The position numbers and the translations under genes were made by a program. Shown here one piece after another: positions 1-6,217 of a stretch of 6,217 bases of DNA. Below the pieces are notes generated by a model that did no database searches, was not told the DNA's origin, and was given only the letters and a program-made list of their open reading frames with translations. Source of the stretch: Chloroflexota bacterium (GTDB taxonomy: Bacteria; Chloroflexota; Anaerolineae; Promineifilales; Promineifilaceae). The stretch is from contig JAAEOP010000770.1 of NCBI GenBank assembly GCA_024223125.1, forward strand, positions 1 through 6,217, given 5' to 3'. Positions within the stretch are counted from its first letter, which is position 1, and each line of letters starts with the position of its first letter.

Positions 1-936
1 CAGATGGTGTCGCGGCGGCACGCCCAAATTGAGTGTACGGATGAAGGTTGCACGATTACCGACCTCGACAGCTCGAATGGCACAAAACTGAATGGGGCGC
101 GATTGAGGGCAAAAGACAGTGTGCCGCTGAATCCGGGGGACATGGTTGACATTGGTACATTCACGTTGACATATGAACAGGTGCAAATTGAACCGGAACC
201 GGTTGTGCCAGAAGAACCACCAGCGGCCGAACTGGAGTCGGCACAAAAAGTTGAGGATGTAGCGGCCGCAGTTGAACCAGAGCCTGACCCTAAGCCTGAA
301 GCCGTGGCGAAGCAGAAAACACCTAAAGCGAAGTCCAAACCAGAAACTGACTTATTGGTTGAAGTAGAAAAACCAGAAAAAGTTGCACCGCCACCACCGC
401 CGCCAAACGGCACGGCCGCGGCCGCCGAAGAACCCGATGCTCCCTACACCCCCCCACCTGGATTGTCTTTCATAGAGAGCCGTTATATACAATACCTGCC
501 TGGTATCTACCGTACCGACTTCATGAAACGATTCCTGGCCTTGTTTGAATCCATTTATGGGCCGATTGAGTGGAATGTCGAAAACTTCGATCTATATCTG
601 AATCCCAAAACAGCGCCCGAAGGATTTATTCCCTGGCTGGCCAACTGGTTTGACGTATCCTTTGATAATAGCTGGAATGAAGCAGCGCGTCGCGCCTTCC
701 TGGTGGATGCCCACAAAATTTTTGCCCGACGCGGAACCAAATGGGCCTTAAGCCGTATTCTGGAAATCTATACCGGCCAAGAACCCCTTATTGATGATAC
801 TCATGAAGACTTGACTCCCTTTACCTTCACTGTGGAGATTCCGCTCAAAGAATCAGAAGTCAATCGAACCTTGATTGAACAGCTTCTCAATGATCATAAA
901 CCGGCCTACACTTCTTACGATCTCAGTTTCAAATAG
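1..936 (+). CDS. FHA domain fused to P2-gpI-like phage-tail/CIS baseplate protein (5' partial)
   Basis: The reading frame is open to the window edge, so the true start lies upstream; residues here are numbered from the ATG at 4. Residues 1-60 are the C-terminal two thirds of an FHA domain: SRRH at 3-6 and SSNGT at 23-27 are the conserved pThr-pocket segments, while the usual N-terminal Gly-Arg strand is off the window. Residues 62-157 are a low-complexity linker rich in Pro, Glu, Ala and Lys, with six prolines at 129-134. Residues 160-310 match the Tail_P2_I / TIGR02242 tail-protein pattern: LPGIYR, then RFLALFE, IEW, a TAPEGFIPWLANW stretch, and RRGTKWALSRILEIYTG. In phage P2 and eCIS this family sits in the baseplate wedge. 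The tail-domain call is strong; assignment to an eCIS rather than a prophage is inference from the fusion and the neighbouring signalling genes. No hydrophobic segment is visible, so the protein is presumably cytoplasmic until particle assembly. Confidence 0.85.
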   Translation, partial: QMVSRRHAQIECTDEGCTITDLDSSNGTKLNGARLRAKDSVPLNPGDMVDIGTFTLTYEQVQIEPEPVVPEEPPAAELESAQKVEDVAAAVEPEPDPKPEAVAKQKTPKAKSKPETDLLVEVEKPEKVAPPPPPPNGTAAAAEEPDAPYTPPPGLSFIESRYIQYLPGIYRTDFMKRFLALFESIYGPIEWNVENFDLYLNPKTAPEGFIPWLANWFDVSFDNSWNEAARRAFLVDAHKIFARRGTKWALSRILEIYTGQEPLIDDTHEDLTPFTFTVEIPLKESEVNRTLIEQLLNDHKPAYTSYDLSFK

Positions 937-1029
937 GGCATGTTGTGAAACTTTAGCGAAATTTTGTTACCTAGTTAACTTCACCCTGTAAAGTCGTTGC
1001 AAAGACCCGTGATTTTAGGCTGTGTAAAA

Positions 1030-1058
1030 TTGACATTGGTGTGTTCATCCATTAAGAT
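1030..1058 (+). promoter_or_regulatory. sigma70-type promoter of the BTAD operon
   Basis: A perfect TTGACA at 1030-1035 is followed, after exactly 17 bases, by TAAGAT at 1053-1058, which keeps the key T-A....A-T positions of the -10 box. Start of transcription would be near 1065, giving a leader of about 175 bases before the GTG at 1242. The element is in the AT-rich spacer and correctly oriented for the downstream genes. Promoter activity itself is inference. Confidence 0.6.
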
Positions 1059-1108
1059 TTTCTCAAGAACGAAAAAGGCAAAGTGCCAACTTTATAGCCT
1101 TGAGAAAA
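1058..1108. repeat. Perfect 10-bp inverted repeat over the promoter start region
   Basis: TTTTCTCAAG at 1058-1067 is exactly complementary to CTTGAGAAAA at 1099-1108. The 31-base spacer itself holds a small GGCA/TGCC stem (1077-1080 / 1084-1087). The left arm begins at the last base of the -10 box and would span the transcription start, so transcripts from that promoter would lack most of this arm. This makes a DNA operator more plausible than an RNA hairpin for that transcript; RNA reading through from the upstream gene could fold it. Arm centres are 41 bp apart, close to four helical turns. Confidence 0.5.
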
Positions 1109-1119
1109 ATTGTTGCAAA

Positions 1120-1178
1120 CCTGATGATCAGGCACTAAGCTAGATTTAGAAGCAATTTATTAGATAACCCAATTGCTT
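1120..1178. repeat. Two short palindromic stems in the leader
   Basis: CCTGA at 1120-1124 pairs with TCAGG at 1128-1132 around a 3-base loop. AAGCAATT at 1150-1157 pairs with AATTGCTT at 1171-1178 around a 13-base loop. Both would lie in the 5' leader of the operon mRNA. Neither is followed by a T-run, so they do not look like terminators. They may be RNA structure or protein sites, or chance in AT-rich DNA. Confidence 0.3.
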
Positions 1179-1229
1179 GAATTTTCAATTCTGGTGTGTT
1201 CCGGTTTTTCCATGAATTGATTAGAAAAT

Positions 1230-1234
1230 GAGGT
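1230..1234 (+). promoter_or_regulatory. Ribosome binding site for the GTG start at 1242
   Basis: GAGGT at 1230-1234 lies 7 bases before GTG at 1242. No in-frame ATG with a comparable site is nearby, and the protein from this GTG starts directly with the expected first strand of the winged-helix domain, so the GTG is the likely start. Confidence 0.6.
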
Positions 1235-1241
1235 CCATACT

Positions 1242-2117
1242 GTGACTAATCTTCAAGTAAGGACACTTGGAAAATTGCAACTTCAACATAATGGGAACGT
1301 TGTTAACAGATTTCCTACCCGATATGTTGAAGAATTGTTGGGGTTTCTGTTACTAAATCCCCATGTAGAACACAGTCGTCTGAAACTGATTGATCTCTTA
1401 TGGCCCGATTGTGCCGAAAAACAGGGCCGCGGCCGCTTAAATACAACCTTATGGCGTTTACGGACATTATTTGATACGCTGGATGTATCTCATGATACAT
1501 TGTTGCATACGACGCGAGGATGGGTTAGTTTTAAGCCTGATTCGCTTATGCAGGCCGATTTTGAATTATTTGAGAAGTGCGCCCAAAAAGCACAGTTTGA
1601 AAATGATTTTGATGAAAGGGAACATCTTTTGCATCAGGCTGTCGCTGAATATCAGGGAGATTTTTGTGAGGGTATTTATACTGATTGGTGTCTGATAGAG
1701 CGAGAACGTCTGGCGCGGCTTCATTTGCGACTGCTTGGTCAGCTTATGCATTGTTTGTTACAAAGAGGTGAATATGAAGCGGCCGCGGAAATGGGGCAGC
1801 ATATTTTACAGATGGATCCATTACGGGAAGAGGTGCATCGGGCAGTGATGTTGTGTTACAAGAATTTGGGCTGGCATACAAAAGCGATAAAACAGTTTCA
1901 GATATGTTCGGATTTGTTGGCGCTGGAATTGAGAGTGGTTCCTATGCCGGAAACGGCCGTGTTATTCAACCAGGTTATCTCCGAGCGTACCCGACATGTA
2001 CAGACAGATCTTCTGACGCATGATCCTTTACAAGATGAGTTGCAGGCAGCTTTCGTGCAGTTTCAATCTGCCAGCGACCGGTTGAACAAGCTGCTGGCCC
2101 GATACAAATCATCATAA
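1242..2117 (+). CDS. BTAD/SARP-type transcriptional regulator
   Basis: This 291-residue protein has the two-part plan of the AfsR/DnrI/SARP family without any ATPase or NB-ARC module. Residues 4-97 form an OmpR-like winged helix: the first strands (LQVRTLGKLQL), the FPTRYVEELLGFLLLNP helix region (24-40), DLLWPD at 51-56, the recognition-helix segment RGRLNTTLWRLRTLF at 63-77, and a wing ending in TTRGWVSF (90-97). Residues about 101-250 are the all-helical, TPR-like bacterial transcriptional activator domain (GDFCEG; ERLARLHLRLLGQL; the YEAAAEMGQHILQMDPLREE repeat). Residues 255-291 form a further helical tail that could be a coiled coil. It is probably cytoplasmic and DNA-binding. It is first in the operon, 17 bases before the VWA/FHA gene, with a GTG start. 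By position it may control its own operon, the upstream tail genes, or both; targets and ligand are unknown. Family call firm, role inferred. Confidence 0.88.
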   Translation: MTNLQVRTLGKLQLQHNGNVVNRFPTRYVEELLGFLLLNPHVEHSRLKLIDLLWPDCAEKQGRGRLNTTLWRLRTLFDTLDVSHDTLLHTTRGWVSFKPDSLMQADFELFEKCAQKAQFENDFDEREHLLHQAVAEYQGDFCEGIYTDWCLIERERLARLHLRLLGQLMHCLLQRGEYEAAAEMGQHILQMDPLREEVHRAVMLCYKNLGWHTKAIKQFQICSDLLALELRVVPMPETAVLFNQVISERTRHVQTDLLTHDPLQDELQAAFVQFQSASDRLNKLLARYKSS

Positions 2118-2125
2118 TTAACATT

Positions 2126-2130
2126 AGGAG
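2126..2130 (+). promoter_or_regulatory. Strong ribosome binding site for the VWA/FHA gene
   Basis: AGGAG at 2126-2130, extended by GAA, lies 4 bases before ATG at 2135 in the 17-base gap after the regulator stop. It is the best Shine-Dalgarno sequence in the window and fixes the start in front of a clear signal peptide. Confidence 0.7.
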
Positions 2131-2134
2131 AAGT

Positions 2135-4105
2135 ATGTACAGTAGAAAGTCTCTCATTGGTGTCCTGATTTTATTGATAGCTATTTTAACGTCAGGGGGA
2201 GTGTTGGCTCAATCGCAGACAGGAGTTGGCGCTGTCACTGAGATTGTCGTCACGACTGTAGAAGGAGCAGATTTCCCAGTTGTTACCCTTTTTGTACGTT
2301 CCCTGAATGCGGAGGGATTACCCGTATCGGGTCTTAGCGGAGCTGATCTCCAGGTGACGGAAGATGATAAAACGGTGGAATTGATTCGTGGCCCGGTAGC
2401 AAACGAGGGTGGTTTGTGGGGCTACTTTGTGGTTGATGGGGGCGTACGCCTGGGGCAGGCTAATCGTTGGCAGAAAGTACAAGATATTATTAAAGCGTTT
2501 ACCGAACCCGGCGGCCGTATGCAGGCCAATGATCATATTGCGGTCACCGTCATTGAAGGCGCCGATTCAATATTGTTGACAGATTACACAACGAATGGGT
2601 CTGATGTGGTGACAGCTCTGGATTCTTACCGGCCGCGGGGGTGTACAGATTGTTTTTCTGATGTGGTTGACCCACTGGAGGACATTTTAGATGATCTGGA
2701 CAATGCCGAAAATTCACAGAACCAGCCCAAGTTTATTCTGTTTTTGACGGGTGAATTAGAACGCTACCAACCCGGCGCCATTGATTCTTTGGCTGACCGG
2801 GCTAATAGTTTGGAAGTCCCCATTTATACCGTAGCCGTAGACGGCCGAGGCGCTGTGGAACTCGTTCGAAAGTTAGGTGAGGATAGTGGTGGCGCATCTT
2901 TAGAGTTTGATGATCCTGAACGAGCAGCGGCCGATTTGGACACATTGTATCGAGATATGTTGGGTGCGTTACGGCCACAATATGAGATGGCGTATCGTTC
3001 GCCCAGCGGTGTGGCCAGCACCCGCATTGTGCGTGTAGCCACGGCCGACGGCCGTATTGTGGGCGAAAACAATTACAACATCGAAAACATCGCTTTACCA
3101 AGAGTGACCATAGACCTGCCGGTAGAAGCCTCGATTGTGACCCCGGACAATACAGACAGTGTGGTGGCTAAAGTGGTGTTTACGGATGACCATAAACGAG
3201 AATTGGAAACGGCCGTGTTGAAACTTAACGGCCAACCGGTGCAAACCATCTCCAATCCGCCCGACCCGTCCCAAATTGAGTTCGATTTCCCCTGGGATCA
3301 GATAGATGAGTCCGGCAGTGTCAAGCTGGAAGTGGAAGTGAAAGACGAATTTAATCTCTCTTCTCGTCCGGGCACGGTTGAAGTAACGGCCGATTTGCCT
3401 GTGGTAGTGATACCCACAGATACACCGACACTATCAGACGAAGGAAACGATGCGGGAATAGAATCTACTCCCTCAACTGGTGAAGACAGCGCTGAAACAG
3501 TTACCCCACCTACTTCCGGTATATCCAACACAGTCATCCTGATAAGCATTGCCTTACTGGCTGTTGTCATGGTGGTCCTCGTCCTCACCCGTGATAAAGG
3601 GCCGGTCAAAGCAGCCCGTGAAACCATCATGCGGCAGGTAGACCGCATGACTAAACGGGTCAGCCCTTCAGAGGTTCGAGCGTATCTGATTGTTTTGGAA
3701 GGGGACGTCAACATAGGCAAACATTTAGAACTGTATGGTACGACTACTATCGGCCGTTCCAAACAAGATTCTGACCTACTCTTTCAGCAGTATGACGACA
3801 CCAGCCCCATCAGCCGTCGTCACTGCACAATTATTGACGAAGAAGATCATTTTAAGCTCCGAGATGAAGACAGCGCCAATGGCACATTTCTCAACGGTGT
3901 GCGGCTGGAGTCAATGGTTCCTAGAGATTTACAAGATGGAGACGAGATCGAAATTGCTCGTGTGGAACGGGGTGGGGTCAAGCTGCAATTCCAGAGCGTT
4001 CAACCTGTCAGTGATTCATATGACGATTATGATGATTATGGTGATGATGATGACTTTAGAGGTACACGAGTGGTAAAACGAGACCAGCCAGGAGATCGGT
4101 TTTGA
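2135..4105 (+). CDS. Membrane protein: external VWA and Ig-like domains, cytoplasmic FHA domain
   Basis: This 656-residue protein starts with a signal peptide (basic YSRK, hydrophobic core 7-19, likely cleavage after VLA at 23-25). Residues about 33-85 resemble the N-terminal part of VWFA-related proteins (ADLQVTEDDKTVELI). A VWA-like fold spans about 94-285, but its metal site is degraded: DxSxS reads D101-G-G-V-R105, Thr171 is kept, and the second Asp is Gly206 in FLTGEL. A CTDC pair (170-173) could form a disulfide. Residues about 322-425 look Ig-like, followed by a Thr/Ser/Pro/acidic linker. One transmembrane helix lies at about 466-485, then a basic stretch. A complete FHA domain at about 519-611 has G540-R541, S560-R-R-H563 and N582-G583. 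The acidic tail (Asp/Tyr-rich, 629-640) ends with RGTRVVKR. With VWA outside and FHA inside, it could pass an external or envelope cue to the downstream kinases. The ligand is unknown. Its TGA overlaps the kinase start by 4 bases, indicating translational coupling. Confidence 0.85.
   Translation: MYSRKSLIGVLILLIAILTSGGVLAQSQTGVGAVTEIVVTTVEGADFPVVTLFVRSLNAEGLPVSGLSGADLQVTEDDKTVELIRGPVANEGGLWGYFVVDGGVRLGQANRWQKVQDIIKAFTEPGGRMQANDHIAVTVIEGADSILLTDYTTNGSDVVTALDSYRPRGCTDCFSDVVDPLEDILDDLDNAENSQNQPKFILFLTGELERYQPGAIDSLADRANSLEVPIYTVAVDGRGAVELVRKLGEDSGGASLEFDDPERAAADLDTLYRDMLGALRPQYEMAYRSPSGVASTRIVRVATADGRIVGENNYNIENIALPRVTIDLPVEASIVTPDNTDSVVAKVVFTDDHKRELETAVLKLNGQPVQTISNPPDPSQIEFDFPWDQIDESGSVKLEVEVKDEFNLSSRPGTVEVTADLPVVVIPTDTPTLSDEGNDAGIESTPSTGEDSAETVTPPTSGISNTVILISIALLAVVMVVLVLTRDKGPVKAARETIMRQVDRMTKRVSPSEVRAYLIVLEGDVNIGKHLELYGTTTIGRSKQDSDLLFQQYDDTSPISRRHCTIIDEEDHFKLRDEDSANGTFLNGVRLESMVPRDLQDGDEIEIARVERGGVKLQFQSVQPVSDSYDDYDDYGDDDDFRGTRVVKRDQPGDRF
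4090..4094 (+). promoter_or_regulatory. Ribosome binding site that supports a TTG start at 4102
   Basis: AGGAG at 4090-4094, inside the last codons of the VWA/FHA gene, is 7 bases from TTG at 4102. The start and the preceding stop share TTGA (4102-4105). The spacing and the immediate onset of kinase-type sequence (YRDHYTLEEHIASGGF) favour this non-ATG start. Confidence 0.65.
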
Positions 4106-5055
4106 AAGGCGCCAAACTTTATAGAGATCATTATACGCTGGAAGAACATATTGCCTCCGGTGGATTCGCAGACATTTACCGAGCGTCTGAGGTTGGCCGA
4201 AATGAGCCGATAGCTATCAAAATTTGCGCCAAACATGATGATGTTTCCTATTCCCGTTCCATCATCAAAGAAGCAGAGCTTCTTCGGAAATTTAACCACC
4301 GCAGCATCATCAAACTGCATCCTATTCCCCGCCCAGACAAAGCCAGCGTCACTTATGCGAATGCGATTGAGCTACCCCAGCATCCCGTCTTCTTCGTCAT
4401 GGAATATCTGAATGGAGGTTCTTTAGAGGATTATCTGCAAGAAGTGGGCACATTATCGCCGCCAGAAGCAGCTACCATTGCCCTGGAAGTGGCCCGTGCC
4501 TTAGATCATATTCATCTGAAAGGGTATGCCCACAATGACTTGAAGTTGGAAAATATCGTTTTTAGGGAACCGGTGCAGGCTGGAAAAATGTTTATGCCTG
4601 TCTTATTGGATTTTGGTATTGCTACCCGCGTTTTGCCTCCACAAGGAGGCACGTTGTATATCATGTCGCCAGAACAACTGCCATTGGTAAGCGTCAATGT
4701 AGCTCCTGAGCGCATGAACGATGTCGATCAGGTGAAGATTGATGTGTGGGGATTGGGCGTGGTTTTGTATCGTATGCTGGGTGGAAAACTGCCATTTTCG
4801 GGGCGTAATACCCGTTCTTTGACGGCGCAGATAAAGGTTTCTCGACCCACGTCTTTGCGTGAATTTTCGCGGCAGATAACGGCCGGATTGGATGAGATGG
4901 TAATTGATGGTTGTCTGGCTAAAGATCCCAATCACCGCTTGTCCTTATTAGATTTGGGGATCGAACTACGAAAAGTGGCCGGGCCAGGCGTGCCCGCTCA
5001 GAAAAGTGGGCACGCATCGTCCCGAAAAAGTAAATGGATGTTCTGGTCTTCGTAA
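4102..5055 (+). CDS. Soluble Hanks-type Ser/Thr protein kinase (non-RD)
   Basis: This 317-residue protein phosphorylates Ser/Thr using ATP by family. A kinase fold spans about 10-293: glycine loop IASGGFADIY (17-26), IAIK with Lys40, a helix-C Glu at 57, catalytic loop H144-N-D146-L-K148-L-E-N151, DFG at 170-172, SPE at 189-191, DVWGLGVVLY in the F helix and a C-terminal HRL motif. All catalytic residues are present, but the HRD Arg is Asn145, so it is a non-RD kinase. The segment between DFG and SPE is short and has little to phosphorylate besides the P+1-side Thr, suggesting control other than activation-loop phosphorylation. There is an extra loop before the hinge (about 71-94) and a loop with a second APE-like triplet after SPE. 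The basic, Ser-rich tail has no membrane helix, so the kinase should be cytoplasmic. It is translationally coupled to the VWA/FHA gene, whose FHA domain is a natural partner. It ends in tandem stops TAA TAG. Confidence 0.9.
   Translation: MKGAKLYRDHYTLEEHIASGGFADIYRASEVGRNEPIAIKICAKHDDVSYSRSIIKEAELLRKFNHRSIIKLHPIPRPDKASVTYANAIELPQHPVFFVMEYLNGGSLEDYLQEVGTLSPPEAATIALEVARALDHIHLKGYAHNDLKLENIVFREPVQAGKMFMPVLLDFGIATRVLPPQGGTLYIMSPEQLPLVSVNVAPERMNDVDQVKIDVWGLGVVLYRMLGGKLPFSGRNTRSLTAQIKVSRPTSLREFSRQITAGLDEMVIDGCLAKDPNHRLSLLDLGIELRKVAGPGVPAQKSGHASSRKSKWMFWSS
4988..5015 (+). repeat. 8-bp GC-rich inverted repeat at the 3' end of the first kinase gene
   Basis: GCGTGCCC at 4988-4995 is exactly complementary to GGGCACGC at 5008-5015 with a 12-base loop. 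It lies inside the last codons (about residues 296-305) in a low-conservation tail. No T-run follows, so it is not an intrinsic terminator. It could form an mRNA stem between the two kinase cistrons, affecting stability or expression ratio, or be coincidental. Confidence 0.4.
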
Positions 5056-5061
5056 TAGCTA

Positions 5062-5090
5062 TAGACATTCAGATAATATTTTTGGATACT
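5062..5090 (+). promoter_or_regulatory. Possible weak promoter before the second kinase gene
   Basis: TAGACA at 5062-5067 (5 of 6 to the -35 consensus) and GATACT at 5085-5090 (4 of 6) are 17 bases apart in the AT-rich 56-base gap. Transcription would begin near 5097, right at the Shine-Dalgarno sequence, giving a very short leader. Such matches are frequent in AT-rich DNA, so the gene may simply be co-transcribed from upstream. Confidence 0.3.
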
Positions 5091-5098
5091 AGAATTTG

Positions 5099-5102
5099 AA
5101 GG
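5099..5102 (+). promoter_or_regulatory. Ribosome binding site deciding the TTG start at 5112
   Basis: AAGG at 5099-5102 is 9 bases before TTG at 5112. An in-frame TTG at 5106 is only 3 bases away and therefore less likely. An in-frame TAA at 5103-5105 blocks any start further upstream, so the gene must start at one of these two TTG codons, or later with loss of the first kinase strand. Confidence 0.5.
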
Positions 5103-5111
5103 TAATTGAAC

Positions 5112-6217
5112 TTGGAAAAAGTTGGCCCCTATAAAATACTGGCAGAAGTGGGTAAAGGCTCTACGGCGCGAGTGTACCGAGCGTGGGATGAAGCGCAGGC
5201 TCTGGAGGTAGCTGTAAAGCTCATGTCGGCCCGTATAAGCCATCAGGAATTGTATGCGGAGCGGGTGTCGGAACAGGTCACGGCCGTTAACCAACTGCAA
5301 CATCCCCATATTCTGCCTGTGCTGGAAACAGGAATGCATGACGGCCGTCTTTACCTGGTCATACCCTTTATGAAAGGGGGAACTTTACGCTCCCGATTGG
5401 ACGATGGTAGCCTGCCACAAGCAGAATTGTGGCAAATGATGCGCCAGGTAGCCTCGGCTCTGGACAGCTCTCAAGCCGCCGGAATTTCTCACCTGGATAT
5501 AAAGCCCACCAATATTTTATTCAACCGGAAGGGAAATGCTTTTGTGGCTGATTATGGTTTGATGCAGGCCATAGATGTGACACTTCATGCTTCTGGATTG
5601 CCGGGAACATTAGCTTATATGTCGCCGGAACTGTTTGTGGGTGGAGGAACAGACGGCCGTGCCGATCAATACAGTCTGGCAATTGTGGCTTTTGAGAGCT
5701 TGTCTGGTCAACTGCCATTTAGCGGCAATGTGACCCAACTCATGTTCAAGCAGGTGCATGAATCGCCACCACTGGAACTGTTACATGATGATGAGTTGGC
5801 TCAGGTTTTGGGTCAGGCGCTGGCCAAAAAACCGGATGAACGCTTTAATACCACCTCCGAGTTTGTCATGGCGTTAACTGCGGCCGTGTTATCTGTGGCC
5901 GCAGATGCAAATATGACGTTTATTATGGGGGCGACGCGGGCTGTGACCGATCCTGAACCGGAACCAGCAGCCGCATCTGTGGAACTCATTATAACCCCGG
6001 AGGAAGATGAACCTGAGGAGGCCAGCGATGCCACCTTGATTGCGCCCTCCCCTTTACGGCCGTTGCCCCTAACCACAGATATTGAGTCGGAAGAAGAACT
6101 GCATTTGGATGAAGCGCTGGATGATGTGCTTATTGCCTATGATAGTGACGCGACGATGATTGTAGCGCCCCCAACAGCGCCAAAGTTTCCAGAGGAAAGT
6201 GAACGACCCCCTGTGGC
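5112..6217 (+). CDS. Ser/Thr protein kinase with acidic, Thr-motif tail (3' partial)
   Basis: The frame is open from TTG at 5112 to the window end (368 codons plus two bases), so the C-terminus is missing. The kinase domain covers about 7-262: EVGKGSTARVYRAWD (glycine loop, 12-26), VAVK with Lys36, HPHILPV, catalytic loop H127-L-D129-I-K131-P-T-N134, D147-Y-G149 in place of DFG, GTLAYMSPE (165-173), and the ADQYSLAIVAFE helix F. Catalytic Asp129, Lys131, Asn134 and Asp147 are kept, so activity is plausible. The HRD Arg is Leu and DFG is DYG. The helix-C Glu is uncertain: the register suggests Gln55 or a one-residue shift to Glu54. Thr157 and Ser161 in the activation segment could be phosphorylated. 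Residues about 283-368 are an acidic Pro/Ala/Glu linker with SDATLI (305-310) and SDATMI (345-350), which may be phospho-sites for FHA domains. Whether a membrane helix or sensor domain follows is unknown. It lies 56 bases after the first kinase and is probably part of the same module. Confidence 0.88.
   Translation, partial: MEKVGPYKILAEVGKGSTARVYRAWDEAQALEVAVKLMSARISHQELYAERVSEQVTAVNQLQHPHILPVLETGMHDGRLYLVIPFMKGGTLRSRLDDGSLPQAELWQMMRQVASALDSSQAAGISHLDIKPTNILFNRKGNAFVADYGLMQAIDVTLHASGLPGTLAYMSPELFVGGGTDGRADQYSLAIVAFESLSGQLPFSGNVTQLMFKQVHESPPLELLHDDELAQVLGQALAKKPDERFNTTSEFVMALTAAVLSVAADANMTFIMGATRAVTDPEPEPAAASVELIITPEEDEPEEASDATLIAPSPLRPLPLTTDIESEEELHLDEALDDVLIAYDSDATMIVAPPTAPKFPEESERPPV

Follow-up and report, generated by a model that had tools for sequence, protein, structure and literature searches.

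How is a contractile injection system (CIS) controlled when one of its baseplate genes lies beside a set of Ser/Thr kinase genes? The question is raised by contig JAAEOP010000770.1 of a Chloroflexota bacterium, a stretch of 6,217 nucleotides analysed at its full length (the window). Gene calls and Pfam/NCBIfam matches confirmed the gene list of an earlier note on this DNA, in which a tail gene with an FHA domain is followed by a BTAD regulator, a VWA-FHA protein and two Ser/Thr kinases (K1 and K2), all five on the forward strand; one correction was that K2 is truncated by the window end. That note had read the cluster as a phosphothreonine control module for a CIS. In the explanation that we favour, and hold to be fairly probable, the window is the seam at which a CIS end and a type VII-like signalling head, with its proposed signalling, are fused into one block in an Ardenticatenaceae-like lineage. 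To the left would lie the end of the CIS, with an FHA-bearing P2-I/gp7-like baseplate protein and a CIS-linked BTAD regulator, and to the right VWA-FHA, K1 and K2 would head a type VII-like system (YukD-FHA, WXG100, EccC, CHAP, kinase-FHA and PP2C). This explanation builds on what was established directly: gene content and synteny in relatives, a conserved promoter-like site, a gene overlap, the homology between the ectodomains of K2 and PP2C, and conserved threonine motifs in the K2 tails.

The syntenic block in related genomes

A search of GTDB species genomes gave seven related loci, all from Chloroflexi metagenome-assembled genomes (MAGs). The order tail gene, BTAD, VWA-FHA, K1, K2 was kept in six; the seventh (L007, a 5.2-kb contig) has a gene of the kinase-FHA type directly after the tail gene. 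For three relatives (G001, G002 and G003), 80 kb was assembled from adjoining stretches for gene calling; genes beyond the window ends are deduced from relatives at 46–73% identity per gene. We found that these three share a syntenic block of 55–62 kb, running from a small gene before an AAA ATPase to a PP2C gene, with no common gene order on either side.

The block was annotated by Pfam, and WXG100 by a separate match search. In G002 its CIS part runs in the order AAA/WHD, eCIS core, Pvc16_N, sheath, tube, small protein, tube, variable protein, CIS_tube-LysM, spike, gp25, baseplate J, variable protein, kinase-FHA, giant coiled-coil and M35 proteins, the FHA-bearing tail gene (FHA-Tail) and OmpA. 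It continues with BTAD, VWA-FHA, K1, K2, YukD-FHA (on the opposite strand), WXG100 and EccC, and ends with CHAP, kinase-FHA, pseudokinase-FHA (domains taken from the G003 orthologue) and PP2C. The CIS profiles matched in G002 were PF04984, PF06841 (twice), PF04717/PF05954, PF04965 and PF04865, together with AAA, eCIS core, Pvc16_N and CIS_tube, and G001 and G003 have orthologues. The genes by which a CIS is recognized (sheath, tube, spike, gp25 and baseplate J) cluster with the tail gene in the relatives, outside the window itself. The earlier note, which correctly listed no PP2C gene in the window, had proposed that CIS core genes and such a gene be sought in the flanks, and both were found: the sheath gene precedes the tail gene by 26–34 kb on all three long contigs (G001–G003), and PP2C lies 20–22 kb downstream in all four relatives with a contig of that length (G001, G002, G003 and G006). 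In G004 and G005 the sheath and PP2C genes are on contigs other than that of the tail gene. The TIGR02242 gene is unique in five of the seven related genomes.

The combination that marks a type VII system (WXG100, a multi-FtsK-domain ATPase and a YukD-like protein together) was also present in the relatives, again outside the window, and G045 and G024 share this trio with the block. Each of G001–G006 has one WXG100 match, on the contig bearing the window genes. One full-length copy of EccC was found in four genomes, inside the block, other matches being weak and of FtsK type; it is split across two contigs in G005, and the G004 contig ends before it. EccB, EccD, EccE, EssA, EssB and EsaA did not appear in Pfam scans of the block, and no search was aimed at them. 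Pfam scans of the block proteins also gave no member of the TssJLM family, the OmpA protein matching the long TssL model far below the cut-off.

Such a block might be an island that gathers signalling and secretion genes by chance or selfish clustering, with no functional coupling. VWA-FHA-like and FHA proteins are encoded elsewhere in these genomes too, and variable genes stand between the CIS genes, as such clustering would allow. Set against it are the strict gene order, the sharp borders in three genomes and the conservation of promoter and overlap described below, and we regard it as the least probable account of the block.

Two observations concern individual block proteins. The variable genes of the CIS part look like cargo: one is an M91 'effector' with LysM, and M35 metallopeptidase domains stand on coiled-coil or OmpA-containing proteins (L013:2729-6620 and L013:14407-15612 in G003; L009:8862-12002 in G002). 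The kinase-FHA protein of ~1000 aa beside PP2C was rejected as an active kinase, since G2_34 and G3_37 have, by eye, lost the catalytic Asp (HGG) and the DFG motif (DFR/DFQ) and are likely pseudokinases. The pseudokinase-FHA protein adjoining PP2C (L015:11428-14337 in G003; orthologue G2_34 in G002) has a C-terminal M14 carboxypeptidase domain.

The two sides of the proposed seam

On the left of the seam, the window tail gene (1..936, 5' end cut) encodes an FHA domain, a proline-rich linker and a Tail_P2_I/TIGR02242 baseplate region (FHA 2.2e-13, Tail_P2_I 3.9e-17, TIGR02242 3.1e-23). Since the 5' end is cut, the FHA domain is without its first strands, and the G-R part is missing there and in L005; the full-length proteins of L001–L003 (338–362 aa) have G-R, S-R-x-H and N intact. 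The product, which we take to be a wedge protein like P2 gpI or T4 gp7, is the gp7/P2-I-like component of the CIS, to judge from the unique TIGR02242 gene in most related genomes and from the neighbouring baseplate J gene described below. A phage origin of FHA-Tail was rejected: 62 of 50,697 phage records matched, but in no case was query coverage as high as 80%, and the ten phage matches listed cover only residues 251–352, the Tail_P2_I part. Among the 120 of 802 FHA-tail homologues listed, all carried both Pfam domains.

The association of FHA-Tail with kinases extends well beyond the related loci. The family of G002 holds 52 genomes, 28 with a TIGR02242 match, and loci were taken for nearly all of these and scored with block-derived profiles. 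A kinase lay within ~10 kb in 19 of the 23 FHA-tail loci (window and L001–L007 included) compared with 0/13 plain-tail loci. In an even set of 400 genomes sampled from the phylum, for which the best-scoring FHA-tail and tail loci were used, a kinase was near 18 of 23 further FHA-tail loci, in 14 of the 18 as a kinase-FHA fusion, and near none of seven plain-tail loci. The combined figures were 37/46 against 0/20; when the window was left out together with the seven loci that resemble it, they were 29/38 against 0/20 (Fisher p ~1e-8, a guide only, as the loci are related and L025 and L026 are nearly identical). Weak TIGR02242 matches without a tail-profile match (L048–L050) were uncounted, two matches below the cut-off (G032:C44 and G033:C240) stood outside the counts, and L032, with its tail gene cut at a contig end and a kinase present, was excluded from both groups. 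In a leave-out control the kinase profile recovered omitted kinase classes at 106–218 bits, and Pfam confirmed the profile calls in G217 and G199. The possibility that kinase-rich genomes give this adjacency by chance was rejected, since plain-tail loci gave 0/13 in the family and 0/7 in the phylum even at E = 1. Baseplate J was the nearest upstream profile match in 22 of the 23 FHA-tail loci of the phylum sample; G077 has just 1.6 kb upstream. Elsewhere, the kinase near FHA-Tail is in most cases a kinase-FHA fusion, unlike K1 and K2 of the window.

FHA residues R or S were lost in 3/37 kinase-linked FHA-tails compared with 3/8 informative kinase-less ones (L035, L039 and G122; p 0.06, post hoc). 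A co-loss of kinase and FHA-binding residues was rejected, as the difference in the first 42 loci (1/34 against 3/7, p 0.012) fell to p 0.06 when four loci were added, and R/S loss in kinase-less FHA-tails is at best a trend. In addition, G212 has a CIS cluster with FHA-Tail and no kinase seen, in which a PP2C gene lies between Pvc16_N and sheath (G212:C165:5394-5969, L114), and in G291 (L128, second half) a 616-aa PP2C-containing frame lies ~1 kb past the FHA-Tail end, again with no kinase seen. Kinase-FHA frames of >2000 aa lie downstream of FHA-Tail in L025 (G033) and L026 (G032), and G032 has an extra FHA protein before the AAA ATPase.

On the right of the seam the associations were different. 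K1 relatives at E <= 1e-60 were found in 11 of the 52 family genomes (G001–G006, G024, G039, G041, G045 and G050), and in five of these (G024, G039, G041, G045 and G050) K1 was not seen next to a CIS tail gene; its companions there are PP2C and/or genes of the type VII set. VWA-FHA accompanies K1 in four of the five (the G024 contig begins just before K1), and four of the five assemblies are without any TIGR02242 gene. G045 carries VWA-FHA, K1, PP2C, YukD-FHA, WXG100 and EccC on one contig, and a CIS with FHA-Tail on another. G024 has K1, K2, YukD-FHA, WXG100, EccC, CHAP and kinase-FHA, with no sheath or TIGR02242 match in the assembly; G050, which also has neither, carries VWA-FHA, K1, PP2C and, ~12 kb past K1, an EccC-like gene (28% identity). 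In G039 and G041, VWA-FHA, K1 and PP2C lie on short contigs with no TIGR02242 gene, G039 being without a sheath match and G041 having one weak one. The K1 set thus occurs without a CIS neighbour, which indicates that the signalling set is independent of the CIS neighbourhood; judged by this distribution, it is probably older than that neighbourhood.

These distributions bear directly on the control module of the earlier note, in which BTAD, VWA-FHA, K1 and K2 would be dedicated to the CIS and act on its FHA baseplate in the manner of PpkA/Fha1/PppA. The common strand, the adjacency in six of the seven related loci, the PP2C gene within the block and the CIS-linked BTAD gene a few base pairs before VWA-FHA (7–45 bp in L001–L003, 17 bp in the window) argue for it, but K1 has no adjoining CIS tail gene in 5 of the 11 K1-bearing family genomes, and FHA-Tail has a separate kinase-FHA partner, which is present in the block too. 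We therefore consider a dedicated module possible but doubtful. Part of the earlier claim stands: FHA, kinase and phosphatase genes are truly joined to a CIS, and FHA-baseplate genes are kinase-linked across the phylum. The rest gave way, as VWA-FHA and K1 are more widely tied to PP2C and type VII genes than to a CIS and the partners of FHA-Tail are mostly kinase-FHA fusions. The neighbourhood of tail gene and kinase cluster, which the note had made a test of its idea, likewise held in six of the seven related loci but broke down in the five relatives with K1 away from CIS tail genes, so that by this test the idea is half refuted.

A second alternative is a hybrid machine, in which EccC and YukD-FHA, with OmpA and CHAP, would form a membrane and cell-wall docking platform for the CIS through FHA-phosphothreonine contacts. 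It would account for the single WXG100 and EccC per genome, sited in the CIS block, for the OmpA and CHAP genes within the block and for FHA domains on YukD and on the baseplate protein alike. However, G045 keeps the two machines on separate contigs, and CIS particles of Roseiflexus are described in PMC12998442 as free in the cytoplasm, which disfavours membrane docking and also counts against the explanation favoured here. We consider this hybrid very improbable.

At the seam itself lies the BTAD gene (1242..2117; a SARP/AfsR-like transcriptional regulator of 291 aa; Pfam BTAD 4e-23), which ends 17 bp before VWA-FHA. In G010 the gene immediately after FHA-Tail is a relative of BTAD (47% over 285 aa), with housekeeping-type genes next in line; this contig has no VWA-FHA or kinase after BTAD, no K1 was found at E <= 1e-60, and a kinase-FHA gene precedes FHA-Tail. 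More divergent BTAD genes were seen near several other CIS clusters. From these positions, BTAD appears to be CIS-linked. Membership of the type VII module was rejected for BTAD on the ground of its place in G010 and of the lack of a BTAD match beside VWA-FHA in G039, G041 and G050.

Upstream of BTAD, on the same strand, is a sigma-70-like promoter site, TTGACA-17-TAAGAT (1030..1058). The pattern TTGACA-N17-TAAnAT was present in 7/7 aligned sequences, 163–260 bp before the aligned BTAD start, in a region otherwise poorly conserved. The window site has 10/12 matches, and such sites number two in the stretch against a shuffle mean of 1.4, which is not above expectation; the weight therefore lies on conservation. 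Among 125 loci the exact pattern matched this site (including duplicate copies) and one elsewhere, in L047. In G002 the OmpA gene stands between FHA-Tail and the site, so the site belongs with BTAD. BTAD, VWA-FHA, K1 and K2 likely form an operon that joins a CIS-linked regulator to signalling genes linked to the type VII system, and the conserved promoter-like site before BTAD suggests that this operon may bridge both machines.

The signalling proteins and their proposed circuit

The VWA-FHA protein (656 aa, 2135..4105) has a signal-peptide-like N-terminus and a single further hydrophobic helix (464–487), and its predicted topology is signal peptide, VWA-fold ectodomain, transmembrane segment and cytoplasmic FHA domain. 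The FHA domain was matched by Pfam (2.3e-17) and carries the residues G-R, S-x-x-H and N. Pfam gave no match to VWA, and TIGR03436 fell far under its cut-off (28 against 81 bits); the VWA fold came from a structure model with a mean pLDDT of 53, in its confident region (residues ~92–280). Foldseek showed that this region of the model resembles solved VWA domains, such as 1sht (TM 0.78 by target length, rmsd 3.2). In place of the MIDAS motif DxSxS stands an invariant D-x-G-x-R, and a metal-binding VWA domain was rejected on that ground. T644 (4064..4066), in a C-terminal T-R-V-V invariant in 7/7 sequences, is a candidate phosphothreonine that an FHA domain could bind.

K1 (317 aa, 4102..5055; Pkinase 1.1e-40) begins with TTG within the VWA-FHA stop (TTGA). 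This 4-bp overlap was kept in 7/7 close sequences and also in G039 and G041, both without a TIGR02242 gene. K1 has no evident transmembrane segment, in line with the earlier note, which took the first kinase to be soluble and translationally coupled to VWA-FHA. The Hanks-type residues (catalytic Lys, HxDxKxxN and DFG) are present, with K40, D146, N151 and D170-F-G invariant, and the kinase is of the non-RD type (HND). Mean column identity was 91% for K1, 78% for VWA-FHA and 66% for K2.

K2, whose N-terminal part lies in the window (5106..6217, cut; Pkinase 8.4e-38), is complete in six relatives, where a kinase domain is followed by a low-conservation tail, a single hydrophobic segment, recognized by eye, and a large ectodomain at the C-terminus, with column identities of 0.87, 0.50 and 0.83 for kinase, tail and ectodomain. 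Its catalytic residues are K, HLD and N with DYG in the window, and HRD and DFG in relatives. The earlier idea of a split between sensor and kinase thus suits VWA-FHA and K1 but not K2, an apparent membrane kinase with an ectodomain of its own. The first half of this ectodomain is homologous to the ectodomain of PP2C; with the linkers taken out, hhalign gave a probability of 97.7 and an E of 2.4e-12. Within a set of 138 called proteins, the significant matches of the K2 and PP2C ectodomain profiles were each other's proteins, except for a marginal match of the K2 profile to G3_26 (E 0.007). In G045 and G050, the latter with no sheath or TIGR02242 match, the PP2Cs have a K2-like ectodomain too. 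PP2C phosphatases with such an ectodomain (L011:1449-3608, L123:6975-8843 and L124:3519-5345) would form matched sensor pairs with the kinase. A model of the K2 ectodomain (mean pLDDT 67) resembles the FecR-type anti-sigma regulator 4m0h (E 1.1e-5, TM 0.51 by target, 130 columns). The shared ectodomain suggests one cue with opposing outputs.

The K2 tail holds the candidate targets. The strict motif [DE]-[AE]-T-x-[IVL]-[IV] gave ten matches in the 138 called proteins, 10/10 within three K2 tails, compared with a mean of <=0.04 in shuffled proteins. Three threonine sites (EADAT-x-I, DPEATFVVEPP and EPDATFV[VI]EPP, or variants near to these) stand out as conserved islands in 6/6 complete K2s, surrounded by poorly conserved linker. 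The cut K2 tail of the window has one strict match, D-A-T-M-I-V (6147..6164, T at 6153-6155), a number reached in 39/2000 shuffles, and one site of the looser pattern only, D-A-T-L-I-A (6027..6044, T at 6033-6035). These sites resemble known FHA ligands and may be FHA docking sites.

From these sequence features we infer phosphothreonine signalling at this locus. K2 and PP2C would sense the same envelope cue through their FecR-like domain and give opposite outputs. K2, together with K1, which VWA-FHA would keep close to the membrane, would phosphorylate threonines in its own tail and in partner proteins. The FHA domains of YukD and VWA-FHA could then dock on the phosphorylated K2 tail and gate the EccC machine, with VWA-FHA bringing K1 and PP2C resetting the system. 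BTAD might tune transcription, as AfsR does under AfsK. On the CIS side, the system's own kinase-FHA protein would be the main reader or partner of the baseplate FHA domain, the more general pair, and co-transcription of BTAD, VWA-FHA, K1 and K2 could set both machines under one switch in this lineage.

A bolder form of this idea is a composite machine of monoderm bacteria, in which a phosphothreonine-reading CIS baseplate would be docked and triggered at the cell envelope by a type VII-derived membrane module of EccC and YukD-FHA, with a kinase/phosphatase pair of the same sensor domain as on/off switch. A parallel is the type VI secretion system (T6SS), a phage tail joined to a type IV membrane complex (TssL/TssM). 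We consider a composite machine of this kind quite unlikely.

Several points weigh against the seam and its proposed signalling. The flanks of the window itself are unseen, and what lies beyond it comes from relatives at the 46–73% identity given above. MAG contigs are fragmented, and the G024 contig start and the short G039 and G041 contigs mean that the lack of a CIS nearby is partly missing data. The VWA-FHA model is weak overall (mean pLDDT 53) and its FHA half is poorly modelled, and the threonine motif was picked after the K2 tails had been inspected. On the CIS side, 9/46 FHA-tail loci have no kinase nearby (L021, L022, L035, L039, G122, G212, G291, G297:C158 and G425); several of these contigs are short, and that of G425 ends at the tail gene. 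Five kinase-less FHA-tails keep FHA R and S (L021, L022, G212, G297:C158 and G291), and Ser is lost in three kinase-linked ones (G113, G430 and G297:C163), so FHA function cannot be assumed everywhere. In G204 (L136) and G260 (L135) two FHA proteins of ~570 and ~950 aa, each encoded on its own, come after the plain-tail gene, and no kinase was seen; FHA parts can thus accompany a CIS without baseplate fusion. A further caveat is that the identity of G217 as the Roseiflexus sp. RS-1 chromosome is a presumption.

Outside the signalling genes, the window carries a highly iterated palindrome around CGGCCG, which we would liken to HIP1. ACGGCCGT occurs seven times in the window (1-6217) against 0.08 expected from base composition, and 31–65 times per 20 kb in L010, L014, L018 and L026 (~0.5 expected). 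The palindrome-bearing stretches also include L024, L124 and L123; the variant in G045 is GCGGCCGC (36 and 25 per 20 kb) and that in G050 is TCGGCCGA (9 in 20 kb). ACGGCCGT was absent from the G217 and G199 stretches examined.

Comparison with known systems

The T6SS pathway of PpkA, Fha1 and PppA is alike in having a kinase, an FHA protein and a PP2C phosphatase beside a contractile machine, and an FHA protein and a PP2C phosphatase are indeed present in the block. Also alike is a membrane protein whose VWA domain would face outward, as that of PpkA does (PMC3224232). A membrane kinase with a VWA ectodomain was, however, not found here: the VWA domain is on the FHA protein and not on the kinase, K1 has no evident transmembrane segment and the K2 ectodomain is FecR-like. 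Furthermore, FHA is here also part of the baseplate protein, there are several kinases, and TssJLM is missing from the Pfam scans of the block.

The cytoplasmic CIS of Roseiflexus type (lineage IId; PMC12998442) has the same kinds of CIS genes, and CIS particles of R. castenholzii have been imaged; the words FHA and kinase do not occur in the main text of that paper. G217 has FHA-Tail after baseplate J, plus kinase-FHA genes. Unlike the block, the 60 kb around the G217 CIS gave no match to EccC or YukD. Among the papers listed by text searches of the open-access literature, none, judged by its listing, describes FHA or kinase control in a CIS other than the T6SS. An FHA domain in the baseplate of many Chloroflexota CISs, usually next to a kinase, is a concrete candidate for CIS triggering, and a CIS and a type VII core in one block, with an opposing kinase and phosphatase of the same ectodomain, suggest that unlike nanomachines can share a post-translational switch.

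The variants T7SSc–T7SSe of Bacillota and Actinomycetota, as given in a 2024 survey (PMC11217815), combine WXG100, an FtsK ATPase, a YukD-like protein, a membrane kinase and a PPM phosphatase, with a vWA protein in T7SSc and an FHA protein in T7SSe/f; Chloroflexota are not named in its main text. The locus described here departs from these variants in several ways: a single membrane protein combines VWA with FHA, YukD carries a fused FHA domain, the same type of ectodomain stands on kinase and phosphatase, the bacterium belongs to the Chloroflexota, and the genes are linked to a CIS. TscE of T7SSc is, in the same survey, a separate vWA protein predicted to be cytoplasmic, in contrast to the signal-like N-terminus, transmembrane segment and FHA fusion found here.

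Two regulatory pairs are also alike in part. The window resembles AfsK/AfsR, with Ser/Thr kinases beside a BTAD regulator that matches the AfsR model weakly, although this regulator is without the AfsR-type ATPase domain. In Streptomyces, AfsK/AfsR pairs a Ser/Thr kinase with a BTAD-type regulator. The FHA switches GarA and OdhI have a threonine motif near the FHA domain. Candidate sites of this kind lie near FHA in VWA-FHA (TRVV) and in two YukD-FHA proteins (D-[KR]-T-M), with the difference that the VWA-FHA motif is C-terminal.

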